Source: an uncultured Pelagibacteraceae bacterium (lineage in GTDB: Bacteria > Pseudomonadota > Alphaproteobacteria > Pelagibacterales > AG-422-B15). Taken from it: a stretch of 36,719 nt of DNA. A program made the translations under genes and the position numbers. Below, in pieces: positions 24,634 to 33,796 of this stretch (within the stretch, counting starts at the first letter, position 1; every line of letters begins with the position of its first letter). The stretch is from positions 1 to 36,719 of the forward strand of contig CACKXV010000006.1 in NCBI GenBank assembly GCA_902604225.1, read 5' to 3'. The notes beneath the pieces were generated by a model. The model did no database searches. It had not been told where the DNA came from and saw only the letters and a program-made list of their open reading frames with translations.

Positions 24634-24723
24634 GGAGAGGTGGCTGAGTGGTCGAAAGCATCAGTCTTGAAAACTGACGAGGGAGCAATTCCTCCGTGGG
24701 TTCGAATCCCACCCTCTCCGCCA
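24634..24723 (+). tRNA. tRNA-Ser (anticodon UGA)
   Basis: A 90-base class II tRNA. The acceptor stem GGAGAGG pairs with CCTCTCC. The anticodon stem TCAGT/ACTGA encloses the loop CTTGAAA, with anticodon TGA reading UCA-type serine codons. There is a long variable arm (CGAGGGAGCAATTCCTCCG), the T-arm GTGGGTTCGAATCCCAC, discriminator G and an encoded CCA. The long variable arm confirms a serine rather than a phenylalanine tRNA. Confidence 0.97.
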
Positions 24724-29081: not shown

Positions 29082-31451
29082 TTATAGCGAGGCCAATTCT
29101 TTTGCAAAGCTAAAACCTTTATATATTCTCTGTTTATCAGAGATTTTACTAAAATTATAAACAAGTGTTTGATCAGTTCTTAATTTAATATCAAATTTAT
29201 TAAGATTTATAAAATCAATCAATTTGTCGCTCTTATCAAATTTATTATTTCTAAATTTAATGGTTAGACCTTTCTTCCCAAGATCAAATTTTTCTATACT
29301 TAATTGTTTACACAAAATTCTTAATTCAGTGATTTTGAATAAGTGATTAACTTCATTAGGCATTAATCCAAATCTTTCTTCCATTTCTTTCTTAACTTCA
29401 GTCAGTTCACTATTAGTATTTAAATATGCTAATTTTCTATAAAAGAATAATCGTGTATTTAAGTTTGGTATGTATTTTTCAGGAATTAAAACACTTAAAC
29501 CTAAATTGAGCTGTGGAGACCAGTCATTATCAATTGAATCGCTATCATTTTTCAGTTCAATTATTTTGTCTTTTAAAAGACGATGATATAACTCTAATCC
29601 AATTTCTTTTATATGACCTGATTGTGCGTCACCAATTATATTACCAGAACCTCTCATATCAAGATCATGACTTGCTAAATTAAAGCTAGACCCCCTACTA
29701 TTGAATTTTTTTAGTAAAGAAAGTCTTTTAAATGAATTTTCAGTAATACCGTTAATATCTTTCACGGTATAATAGCAGAAAGCCTCAATATTTGACCGTC
29801 CAATCCTCCCTCTTAATTGATAAAGTTGTGATAATCCAAACTTATCTGCATTATGAATAATCATAGTATTAGTTTTTTGCAAATCTAAACCCGACTCAAC
29901 AATCGTCGTGCATAACAATAATTGAAATTCATTATTGTAAAAATCAATCATGGTATTCTTAAGTTTTTTGGGCGGCATTTGTCCATGAGCAATCTTATAT
30001 TTTAACTCAGGCATTGCTTTTTTTAGAAAATCATCAATTTCTTTCAGTTCTTTAATTCGAGGACATACGTAATAAATTTGTCCATTTCTATTTAGTTCTT
30101 TTTGAATGGCATCTTTAAGATCTTGTTCATTAAAATTTATTACTTCTGTCGCTATTGATTGTCTATTTAAAGGTGCAGTAGAGATAATGGATAAATCTCT
30201 TAATCCCACCAAAGACATTTGAAGAGTTCTTGGAATCGGTGTTGCAGTAAGGGATAATACGTGAATATCTGACCGCAAATTCTTAATTTTTTCTTTTTGA
30301 GAGACACCAAAATGTTGCTCTTCATCAATAATCAGCATGCCCAAATTTTTAAATTTAATTTTATTACCTAGTAGTGCATGTGTGCCAACAACTATATCAA
30401 GCTCGCCATTATTTATTTTTTCTAAAGTTGAACGAGTTTCTGAGGCTGAAACTAATCTTGATAACTGACCTATTTTAATTGGAAAATTTTTAAATCTTTT
30501 AATAAAGTTTTCGTAATGTTGCTGACACAGAAGTGTCGTTGGAACAATGATTGCTACTTGAGCACCATTTAGTGCTACATTGAACGCACCTCTAAGTGCA
30601 ACCTCTGTTTTGCCAAAACCCACATCGCCACATATCAATCGGTCCATAGGAGCGCCATGACTTAGATCTGCTAAAATATCTGAAGTAGCGTTAACTTGAT
30701 CTTCTGTATCTTGGAACTCAAATTCATTTATAAAATTAGAATAGTAAGGTTCTTGTATCCTATATTTTTTTCCTTTTTTTAATGATCTTTTAGCTGCAAT
30801 GACTATTAATTCCTCAGCTATTTCCTTAATTTTATTTTTTGCACTAGCCTTTCTAAATTGCCAATGTGAATTGCCTAACTTATCAACTTGTACATATTCA
30901 TTGTTGCCACCGTATTTACTCAATAATTCTATATTTTCTACGGGAACATAAAGTTTATCATCATTAAAATAATTTAACTCAATACAATCATGACTATTCC
31001 CAAGAACTTCTAATTTCTTTAAACCTCGAAATTTACCAATTCCATGGTTAGCGTGTACTATTAAGTCATTGTCCTCAAAACTACTTAGGTCTGATAAAAA
31101 AGTGTCGGCTTTAATTGATCTCTTTCCTTGATTAAAAGCAAATTCATTAAATGGCCGAATAACTGCTCTGCTAATTTTTTGTACAGTTTTTTGAGTCTTT
31201 AAATCAAATTCTTCAAACCTATCTATGTCGTTTCCAAATAAATTTATTCTTATTGGCTTTGCAAATTCTGATGGAAAGATATCAATAACATCTCCTTTAA
31301 CAGAAAATTCGCCAGGTTCACGTATTGAACTTACCCTGACATATCCATTGGTTGATAAATAATTGAGTGTTAATTCGTAATCGAATTTATTATCTAAATT
31401 AATATTTAAGTTTGACAGTTTAGATGGTGTAACTAGTGCTTCAGATGGCAT
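29082..31451 (-). CDS. mfd: Transcription-repair coupling factor Mfd, unusually short
   Basis: SF2 translocase that removes stalled RNA polymerase and recruits UvrA. Length is 789 residues against about 1150 in E. coli. By motif comparison from memory, about 20-105 matches E. coli D2, the UvrA-binding domain (GYVRVSSIREPGEFSVKGDVIDIFPS). Then, after FNEFAFNQGK, the sequence jumps to the region just before the RNAP-interaction domain (RSIKADTFLSDLSSFEDNDLIVHANHGIGKF, about 111-200). The motor follows intact: Walker A GDVGFGKT (275-282), DEEQHFG, TATPIPRTL, GRIGRS. D7 ends the protein (YIPNLNTRLFFYRKLA). Domains D1a, D1b and D3 appear absent. The start overlaps the sdhE stop (TAATG), so no upstream extension is possible. 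No frameshift is visible. Confidence 0.95.
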   Translation of the reverse strand: MPSEALVTPSKLSNLNINLDNKFDYELTLNYLSTNGYVRVSSIREPGEFSVKGDVIDIFPSEFAKPIRINLFGNDIDRFEEFDLKTQKTVQKISRAVIRPFNEFAFNQGKRSIKADTFLSDLSSFEDNDLIVHANHGIGKFRGLKKLEVLGNSHDCIELNYFNDDKLYVPVENIELLSKYGGNNEYVQVDKLGNSHWQFRKASAKNKIKEIAEELIVIAAKRSLKKGKKYRIQEPYYSNFINEFEFQDTEDQVNATSDILADLSHGAPMDRLICGDVGFGKTEVALRGAFNVALNGAQVAIIVPTTLLCQQHYENFIKRFKNFPIKIGQLSRLVSASETRSTLEKINNGELDIVVGTHALLGNKIKFKNLGMLIIDEEQHFGVSQKEKIKNLRSDIHVLSLTATPIPRTLQMSLVGLRDLSIISTAPLNRQSIATEVINFNEQDLKDAIQKELNRNGQIYYVCPRIKELKEIDDFLKKAMPELKYKIAHGQMPPKKLKNTMIDFYNNEFQLLLCTTIVESGLDLQKTNTMIIHNADKFGLSQLYQLRGRIGRSNIEAFCYYTVKDINGITENSFKRLSLLKKFNSRGSSFNLASHDLDMRGSGNIIGDAQSGHIKEIGLELYHRLLKDKIIELKNDSDSIDNDWSPQLNLGLSVLIPEKYIPNLNTRLFFYRKLAYLNTNSELTEVKKEMEERFGLMPNEVNHLFKITELRILCKQLSIEKFDLGKKGLTIKFRNNKFDKSDKLIDFINLNKFDIKLRTDQTLVYNFSKISDKQRIYKGFSFAKELASL

Positions 31452-31708
31452 TACAGTAAAGTATAATCCTTAAGAAGAGTGAATACTCTATTGTTTAAAG
31501 ACTCTGGAATTTCTTTTTTATTTAATGCATATTGATAAATATCGTTATCATCCATTTCAAGTATTGTTTCAAGCATTACAAGCTCATCTTCATTAAATAA
31601 AGATAGGTACTTATGTGCAAATTTTCCCAAAATAAGATCCATTTCCTTGGATCCACGATGAGTGGACTTGTATAATAGTTTTTTTTGAAATGTTGATAAA
31701 TCTTCCAT
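31451..31708 (-). CDS. sdhE: Succinate dehydrogenase flavinylation factor SdhE
   Basis: An 85-residue antitoxin-CptB/SdhE-fold protein that helps attach FAD covalently to SdhA. The RGxxE motif is present as THRGSKEMDLIL, followed by the five-helix pattern with LNEDEL-like FNEDELVMLETILEMDDNDIYQYALNKKEIP. Positions between recG (divergent, 30 bases) and mfd (overlap TAATG) are typical for Alphaproteobacteria. No sdh genes are present in the window. Confidence 0.93.
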   Translation of the reverse strand: MEDLSTFQKKLLYKSTHRGSKEMDLILGKFAHKYLSLFNEDELVMLETILEMDDNDIYQYALNKKEIPESLNNRVFTLLKDYTLL

Positions 31709-31738: not shown

Positions 31739-33796
31739 ATGAGGCCTAAAATCTTATACAAGCTTTTTTCAAATATAATATCACTTAAAGGCATTGGACC
31801 AAAAAATGCTAAGGTTATAGAAAGGTTATGTGGCAAATATGTTATAGATCTCTTATTTCATAAGCCATCTACATACATTGATAGAAGAAACAGTCCAAAA
31901 ATAATTGATCTTGAAGAAGGTAAAATTGCAACTATCATAGTCACGATAGATAGTCATTCACCATCATTCAATAAAAGGATGCCCTATCGCATTAATTGCA
32001 CAGACAATACTGGAGCTATTTCAATCGTATATTTTAACTTGCGAGGCCCCTATCTAAAAAAAATATTTCCGGTAGGAAGGCAGAAAGTAATTAGTGGTAA
32101 ATTTGAAAAATTTAATGAAAACTTCCAGATAACGCATCCCCAACATGTAGTAGACTTAGAAAATTTAGATAGTGTCAAAAAAATTGAGTGTATTTATCCA
32201 CTTACTGCTGGATTGACATCAAAAACTATACAAAAATCTATAAATTCGGCATTAATTAATCTTGATCCTCTTCCAGAATGGATACCTGACGATAAAATTA
32301 AAATAAATAATTGGCCGAATTGGAATGAAGCCATTAAAAAAATACACAACCCTGTTAATACATCAGACTCGGTTAATTCTCTTTTTCTTGAAAGATTAGT
32401 TTTTGATGAGCTATTAGCTCAGCAACTAACGATACGTCTTATAAAAAACAAAATAAGCCATACCCAGGGCATAGCTATAAGAAGAAATAATAAATTAATA
32501 AAAAAATTGGAAGAAAATCTTGATTTTAGTCTCACTAGCGATCAATTGAAAACTATAGAGGAAATATCAAACGATCAGTCAAAGCCAAACAAAATGCTTA
32601 GACTGTTACAAGGAGATGTTGGGAGCGGAAAAACAATTGTTGCTTTGTTTGCTATGATGCAATGTTTAGAAAATAACAAAAGATCTATACTCATGGCACC
32701 AACAGAGATACTTGCTGAGCAACATTTCAATACAATAGTAAAGATCGTTAACTCAATGGATCTAACATGTTCATTGATAACCTCGTCAACAAAAGATAAT
32801 CATAATTTTGACGCAGATATTTTGATTGGTACTCATGCTCTATTTCAAGAAAAGGTATCTTTTGTTAATATTGGCTTAGTTGTGATTGATGAGCAGCACA
32901 AATTTGGTGTTCACCAAAGAATCTTACTTAATGAAAAAGCAGGAAACGAATGTGATGTATTGCTCATGACAGCAACTCCTATTCCAAGAACGTTAGAACT
33001 TGCCGCTTATGGAGACACTGATATTTCTAAAATTATGGAAAAACCAAAAAATAGGAAAGAAATTAATACTAAGTCAATAAATATAAATAAAGTCGAAGAT
33101 CTGAAGAACAGTCTTAATAAAATAATTAATAAAGGTGAAAAAATCTATTGGGTTTGTCCTTTAGTCGATGAGTCTGAAAAACTTCAATTGCAATCTGTAA
33201 ATGAAAGATTAAAAGATCTCAGAAATTATTATAGCGATTATTCGGTCGAAATTGTGCACGGACAAATGCAGCAAGAAGATAAGAATTCAGTTATGCAAAA
33301 ATTCAAATCTGGAAAAGTTAATATATTAGTCGCTACTTCAGTAATAGAAGTTGGCATAGACGACCCTGATGCTACTGTAATTATAATTGAAAATGCAGAA
33401 AGATTTGGACTTTCACAGCTTCATCAATTACGAGGGAGAGTTGGAAGAGGTGAGAAGACCTCAACCTGCATTTTATTGTTTAACGGTCCTCTTACTGAAA
33501 ATGCTAAAAGAAGAATAAAAATTATGAAAGAAACCAACGATGGATTCAAAATTGCTGAGGAAGACCTGGATATTAGAGGTGCAGGAGAAATTCTTGGATC
33601 CAAGCAAAGCGGCGTGCCAAATTTTAAACTATCAAACCTTGATAAACATAAACACCTATTAGAAGAAGCGAGGGAAACAGCAATCAAGACCATTAAGAAT
33701 GATCCTGAATTAAAAACACCGCTTGGAAAAGCGCAAAGAGTATTGCTTCATTTGTTTAGAAATGATGTCGCAATTGATTATCTTAAAACGGGATAA
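31739..33796 (+). CDS. recG: ATP-dependent DNA helicase RecG
   Basis: RecG branch-migrating helicase, 685 residues, full length. The N-terminal helical part includes LKGIGPKNAKVIERL. The wedge/OB domain lies at about 60-150 (IATIIVTIDSH ... ISIVYFNLRGPYLKKIF). The helicase core has Walker A LQGDVGSGKTIVA, DEQHKFGVHQR, TATPIPRTLELAAYGD and the motif VI region LRGRVGRGE. It reverses stalled replication forks and processes Holliday junctions. The start ATG (MRPKILYKLF) is 30 bases from the divergent sdhE. Its TAA abuts the TAA of the convergent DUF502 gene in a TAATTA palindrome. Confidence 0.97.
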   Translation: MRPKILYKLFSNIISLKGIGPKNAKVIERLCGKYVIDLLFHKPSTYIDRRNSPKIIDLEEGKIATIIVTIDSHSPSFNKRMPYRINCTDNTGAISIVYFNLRGPYLKKIFPVGRQKVISGKFEKFNENFQITHPQHVVDLENLDSVKKIECIYPLTAGLTSKTIQKSINSALINLDPLPEWIPDDKIKINNWPNWNEAIKKIHNPVNTSDSVNSLFLERLVFDELLAQQLTIRLIKNKISHTQGIAIRRNNKLIKKLEENLDFSLTSDQLKTIEEISNDQSKPNKMLRLLQGDVGSGKTIVALFAMMQCLENNKRSILMAPTEILAEQHFNTIVKIVNSMDLTCSLITSSTKDNHNFDADILIGTHALFQEKVSFVNIGLVVIDEQHKFGVHQRILLNEKAGNECDVLLMTATPIPRTLELAAYGDTDISKIMEKPKNRKEINTKSININKVEDLKNSLNKIINKGEKIYWVCPLVDESEKLQLQSVNERLKDLRNYYSDYSVEIVHGQMQQEDKNSVMQKFKSGKVNILVATSVIEVGIDDPDATVIIIENAERFGLSQLHQLRGRVGRGEKTSTCILLFNGPLTENAKRRIKIMKETNDGFKIAEEDLDIRGAGEILGSKQSGVPNFKLSNLDKHKHLLEEARETAIKTIKNDPELKTPLGKAQRVLLHLFRNDVAIDYLKTG

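Follow-up and report, generated by a model that had tools for sequence, protein, structure and literature searches.

A compact Mfd that keeps D2 and lacks D1 and D3 in a family of Pelagibacterales

In a 36,719-nucleotide stretch of DNA from an uncultured Pelagibacteraceae bacterium (GenBank assembly GCA_902604225.1, contig CACKXV010000006.1; hereafter the window), we find a 789-residue Mfd without D1a, D1b and D3. Judged by its sequence, this protein is probably a genuine, working and streamlined coupling factor made up of a recruiter, an RNA polymerase (RNAP) hook, a motor and D7, in which the lock between D2 and D7 is weakened. Most work on the regulation of Mfd, a textbook machine of many domains, has relied on artificial deletions in E. 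coli; here the deletion has been made in nature, in a lineage whose Mfd has shed D1 and D3 and retains D2, the RNAP-interacting domain (RID), the motor and D7. The Mfd of this lineage, family f1, would separate the UvrA recruiter (D2 alone) from parts that are mere scaffold or lock, and leads us to predict a compact, possibly unlocked transcription-repair coupling factor (TRCF) suited to structural work. Set beside sister family f2, which is apparently Mfd-free, f1 forms part of a graded natural loss series inside a single order of bacteria that abound in the ocean.

Domain architecture of the 789-residue protein

The window belongs to a 0.8-Mb assembly of 41 contigs that is 56% complete. As the initial annotation had proposed, positions 29082-31451 encode a 789-residue Mfd, which we place on the minus strand (the annotation gave none), and its start lies inside the sdhE stop, the ATG sharing one base with that codon (TAATG). 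Upstream of the ATG, the frame is closed by a stop at a distance of six codons (stop-to-stop frame, 795 aa); the N-terminus therefore cannot be extended, and a longer protein from an alternative start is ruled out. A tRNA at window positions 24634-24720 is the sole Rfam match in the window.

Pfam domains occur in the order UvrB_inter (D2), RID, DEAD (residues 254-411), Helicase_C (448-553) and TRCF (D7). Against E. coli Mfd, phmmer aligns query residues 30-108 with residues 143-221 and query residues 109-738 with residues 461-1094. We also aligned the family Mfd proteins by MAFFT with E. coli Mfd and eight full-length Mfd proteins of alphaproteobacteria; the window protein lacks E. coli residues 1-113 and exactly 222-460, which correspond to D1a, D1b and D3. 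Alignment to full-length Mfd, a check that the initial annotation had recommended, upholds its reading that D2 is retained while D1a, D1b and D3 are gone, reproduces the junction it described (FNEFAFNQ followed by GK), and puts the loss at about 350 residues, close to its estimate of about 360. The annotation had also raised the case of a D1 or D3 present in diverged form; because only ~20 residues separate D2 from RID and no D1a stands ahead of D2, the frame has no room for either, and this case is ruled out.

The motor is a RecG-like SF2 translocase with Walker A, DEEQ/DEEH and TRG-region arginines, and residues K281, E377, R576 and R600 are conserved in the alignment. The protein passes the Mfd equivalog model TIGR00580 (919 bits; cut-off, 800) and, as expected from its missing N-terminus, falls below the cut-off of the full-length Mfd model NF007966 (661.9 versus 1329). 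Although it does not carry the complete UvrB-homology module D1a-D2-D1b, we class it with Mfd because both its descent and its equivalog score are those of an Mfd: on these sequence comparisons, it is an Mfd orthologue and an architectural variant with an incomplete module. In an AF2 model, the D2 block has a pLDDT mostly of 73-88; the pTM of the whole model is 0.58, which leaves the position of D2 relative to D7 unfixed.

Table 1. Features of the short mfd gene, its neighbours and its product, and the two parts of a split Mfd in genome G389. Positions are those of the window unless a locus is named.
Feature	Position	Strand	Description and basis
mfd	29082..31451	minus	789 aa, transcription-repair coupling factor without D1a, D1b, D3; TIGR00580, Pfam, phmmer, alignment
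sdhE	31451..31708	minus	directly upstream of mfd, one-base overlap; Pfam Sdh5
recG	31739..33796	plus	divergent neighbour of mfd; source of secondary RecG matches
D2 / UvrB_inter, UvrA-binding module	31140..31409	minus	aa 15-104; PF17757, 73.9 bits; aligned to E. coli D2; folded in AF2 model
Flexible linker with deletion junction	31083..31148	minus	aa 102-123; AF2 pLDDT < 50
Deletion junction Q108/G109 (E. coli 221/461)	between 31128 and 31127	minus	alignment
D4, RNAP-interacting domain (RID, CarD/TRCF)	30912..31079	minus	aa 125-180; PF02559, 70 bits; L147 = E. coli L499
Relay-helix equivalent	30783..30869	minus	aa 195-223, one long predicted helix; DSSP of AF2 model
D5/TD1 motor domain	30177..30776	minus	approx. 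aa 226-425; Walker A and DEEQ box; Pfam, alignment
D6/TD2 motor domain	29532..30176	minus	approx. aa 426-640; TRG-region R576 and R600; Pfam, alignment
D7 / TRCF domain	29223..29501	minus	aa 651-743; PF03461, 91.3 bits
K52 (E. coli R165, UvrA contact)	31296..31298	minus	K replaces R in every f1 protein aligned
R68 (E. coli R181, UvrA contact)	31248..31250	minus	invariant; alignment
F72 (E. coli F185, UvrA contact)	31236..31238	minus	F or Y in f1; alignment
E689-E692-R693 (E. coli E1045-D1048-R1049)	29373..29387	minus	D7 autoinhibition cluster; alignment, triad census
G389 D1a-D2-D1b	L205:3204-4172	plus	322 aa; adjoins homoserine O-acetyltransferase-like gene
G389 D3-D7	L186:3358-5685	plus	775 aa; separate contig from the 322-aa part

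Spread in family f1 and age of the deletion

Family f1 comprises genera g1, g7, g8 and g9, represented by SAGs and MAGs, and belongs to the same order as f2. Surveying Mfd length in relatives, as the initial annotation had advised, we found Mfd in 38 of 53 f1 genomes, with open frames of 788-804 aa in 35 of the 38 genes across the four genera; the survey is a sample of genomes, and its figures rest on the matches listed. Among the remaining three, one is 891 aa because its stop-to-stop frame extends further upstream, one (G005) lies at a contig end, and one (G027) contains stops. This last gene (L029; G027:C14:2228-4556) is a broken mfd, its N-terminal match interrupted by five stops, in a genus where the gene is otherwise intact; it is either a pseudogene or a SAG error.

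The f1 proteins are 61-99% identical to the window protein, their genes are located on contigs of up to 445 kb, and all the genera aligned share the alignment column in which the junction falls. In a tree of alphaproteobacterial Mfd, the f1 proteins are monophyletic (100/100). Because sdhE lies just upstream of mfd both in f1 and in alphaproteobacteria with full-length mfd, the deletion arose in place in the orthologous gene. We think it likely that this happened once, as one step in the streamlining of SAR11 genomes, before f1 split into its four genera. Outside f1, intact Mfd frames are mostly 1125-1350 aa among the matches listed, and the combination of D2 kept with D1 and D3 gone was seen only in f1 among the genomes surveyed.

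UvrA, UvrC and UvrB-like matches occur across both f1 and f2, so that the check for uvrA, uvrB and uvrC called for at the outset finds all three in family f1. The window's own assembly contains uvrB and uvrC; uvrA gave no match above cut-off there, which 56% completeness can explain. The f2 genomes (1.0-1.5 Mb, many complete), which we take, from their size and their order, to be Pelagibacter and relatives, keep UvrA and UvrC. Mfd (PF03461) was found in none of 194 f2 genomes, about 137 of which are at least 90% complete, and Mfd-based transcription-coupled repair seems absent from this family.

Conservation of D2 and alternative readings of the short Mfd

E. coli D2 contacts UvrA through R165, R181 and F185 (PMC3025350). 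At these positions, window D2 has two identical residues and one conservative R->K change (Table 1). In diverged pairs within the genus, dN/dS is 0.07-0.09 for D2, about 0.012-0.02 for RID, 0.014-0.03 for the motor and 0.04-0.05 for D7, so that D2 ranks above all other folded domains; the pair L002-L003, the closest, has very few changes, and its D2 value is not below 1. By these substitution rates, D2 is under purifying selection. Further, the ratio of D2 to TD1 divergence is 1.69x in f1 versus 1.61x in full-length alphaproteobacterial Mfd, and this similarity implies that constraint on D2 is not detectably relaxed. In a tree of D2 sequences, f1 D2 clusters with Mfd apart from UvrB (99/96), which rules out a D2 borrowed from UvrB. 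Because the contact residues are conserved, D2 is under selection and uvrABC is present, we infer that the lone D2, on its ~20-residue tether to RID, would still recruit UvrA while no longer embedded in a UvrB-like D1 fold and D3.

A rival reading is that the short Mfd is an RNAP-displacing translocase only, its D2 having lost UvrA recruitment and persisting as a vestige or a regulatory plug for D7. Two points that we weighed against a working coupling factor would fit this reading, namely the R165->K change in all f1 members and the dN/dS of D2; so would the sufficiency of RID and motor for RNAP displacement, and two other reduced Mfd proteins (G453 and G740) keep exactly D4-D7. However, R181 is invariant, F185 is kept as F or Y, and K is a conservative replacement; D2 has diverged relative to TD1 as in full-length Mfd; uvrABC is retained; and it is D7, the partner of the supposed plug, that is eroding, and not D2. 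We therefore regard a translocase-only Mfd as unlikely.

It is very unlikely that the short mfd is a decaying gene heading for loss, as in f2. The 0/194 count in that family, the erosion of the D7 cluster and the one broken copy with five stops (G027) are what decay would produce, but frames are intact in 35 of 38 genomes, the deletion is older than four genera, all checked motor and RID motifs are kept, and dN/dS is low in every folded domain in diverged pairs; this purifying selection strongly disfavours decay.

Supply of D1 and D3 in trans by a separate gene is more improbable again, even though a true split Mfd exists in the unrelated alphaproteobacterium G389, where both parts lie away from contig ends. 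There D2 goes with D1, whereas in the window Mfd it is fused to D4, so that a split would require the folding of D1a, D1b and D3 in the absence of D2. A D1b-D3 profile, which misses strongly compacted D1b/D3 such as those of G276, G526 and G560, yielded nothing credible in the 53 f1 genomes, and tblastn of the window and its flanks found D2 only. An assembly or binning artefact, the initial annotation's other case against its own reading, is practically excluded despite the fragmented, 56%-complete assembly, because the short form and an identical junction recur in independently assembled SAGs and MAGs of four genera.

The D7 lock, proposed mechanism and relation to other Mfd proteins

E. coli D7 docks on D2 through E1045, D1048 and R1049, and breaking the D2:D7 interface derepresses the ATPase and translocase while leaving strand-specific repair (TCR) intact; by contrast, this repair is lost, and RNAP displacement persists, when D2 is mutated or D1a-D2-D1b deleted (PMC3025350). 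This triad is EDR in 83 of 85 unique non-f1 Mfd sequences, one of the two exceptions being G453, which has lost D2. Among 34 f1 sequences, it is EDR in 2, EER in 25, DNQ in 3, DER in 2, EDT in 1 and EVT in 1, counts that represent related sequences and not independent events. The window has E-E-R, in which E692 is a conservative D->E change, and the clamp at this residue may still work; non-conservative changes occur in g7 and g8 only. Because most f1 changes are conservative D->E substitutions, we describe the altered cluster, as read from sequence, as a relaxation that is strongest in g7 and g8 and falls short of proven loss. This erosion of the D2-docking face of D7 lends support to the initial annotation's suggestion that regulation may be changed.

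If the short Mfd is a working coupling factor, its RID would hook the RNAP beta protrusion and hold stalled RNAP, and its TD1-TD2 motor, with the expected motifs, would walk along and torque DNA to push RNAP off. Because the rigid D1-D3 clamp is gone and the D7 docking cluster is altered, D2:D7 autoinhibition has probably weakened relative to E. coli, with D2 exposed more readily and the motor partly derepressed. In E. coli Mfd, D2 is exposed only late. For loading to proceed there, the block of D1-D3 has to move away (PMC7864632, PMC12424862); a tethered lone D2 would remove that obstacle, which may speed up loading and loosen the timing of UvrA recruitment. The E. coli relay helix (residues 548-577) wraps DNA, the proposed basis of processivity, with D1 and D3 uninvolved (PMC7864632). 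Because these domains are not needed for wrapping, it is probably kept in the window Mfd, whose single predicted helix (aa 195-223) could still unfold and wrap DNA.

A bolder, tentative proposal is that the short Mfd is a naturally unlocked factor, in which the tethered D2 is exposed without RNAP-triggered remodelling and recruits UvrA constitutively; such a factor may scan DNA, or already bear UvrA, ahead of its encounter with a stalled polymerase. If true, constitutive recruitment would be a form of transcription-coupled repair that E. coli has not shown.

The best structural match of the window Mfd is 2EYQ. Full-length Mfd (E. coli b1114; PDB 2EYQ, 6X26) has in common with it D2, RID, the RecG-like SF2 motor with its TRG region, and D7; the window protein differs in lacking D1a, D1b and D3, in tethering D2 directly to D4, in its changed D7 lock residues and in its length (789 versus roughly 1130-1350 aa). 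Engineered E. coli variants (delta-BHM, delta-D7 and E1045A D1048A R1049A) are derepressed and retain RNAP displacement, with strand-specific repair also intact in the D7 variants, but none of the constructs in that study removes D1 and D3 and leaves D2 (PMC3025350). The known shorter Mfd of Thermus thermophilus (978-981 aa chains, PDB 6M6A) has ~300 residues before RID, which gave no phmmer match to E. coli D1-D2 or window D2, whereas the window Mfd has only ~110 residues there and a clear D2. UvrB domain 2 is homologous to window D2, but the rest of the protein is not UvrB (TIGR00631, 57.7 bits; cut-off, 750).

D3 has been described as non-conserved and lineage-specific (PMC7864632), and its loss alone is therefore ordinary. 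What is new, to our knowledge, is the loss of both D1 halves with D2 kept, an arrangement undescribed in our survey and in a partial literature search; that search returned no relevant work linking Mfd to SAR11 or Pelagibacter and nothing useful on Mfd truncation in Buchnera.

Other reduced forms occur in the survey. The D4-D7-only Mfd proteins of G453 (L188, 701 aa) and G740 (L207, 717 aa) resemble f1 in convergent loss of N-terminal modules in genomes of about 1 Mb, but both have lost D2, and G740, a complete 0.98-Mb genome, also lacks UvrA, whereas f1 kept D2 and UvrA. The UvrA of G453 is 862 aa and lacks about model positions 287-400, a gap also present in its relative G619. In G365, a second apparent split probably reflects a break between contigs, since each piece lies at a contig end. 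Short frames in G318, G336, G437 and G828 were excluded as evidence, being probably due to contig ends, frameshifts or the fragmentation of MAGs. G487, a relative of G389, has a similar short C-terminal half of Mfd. Finally, G276 (L189), G580 (L190) and G503 (L198) encode compact Mfd proteins of 1011-1017 aa, in which D1b/D3 is shortened and strongly diverged and D1a and D2 are kept.
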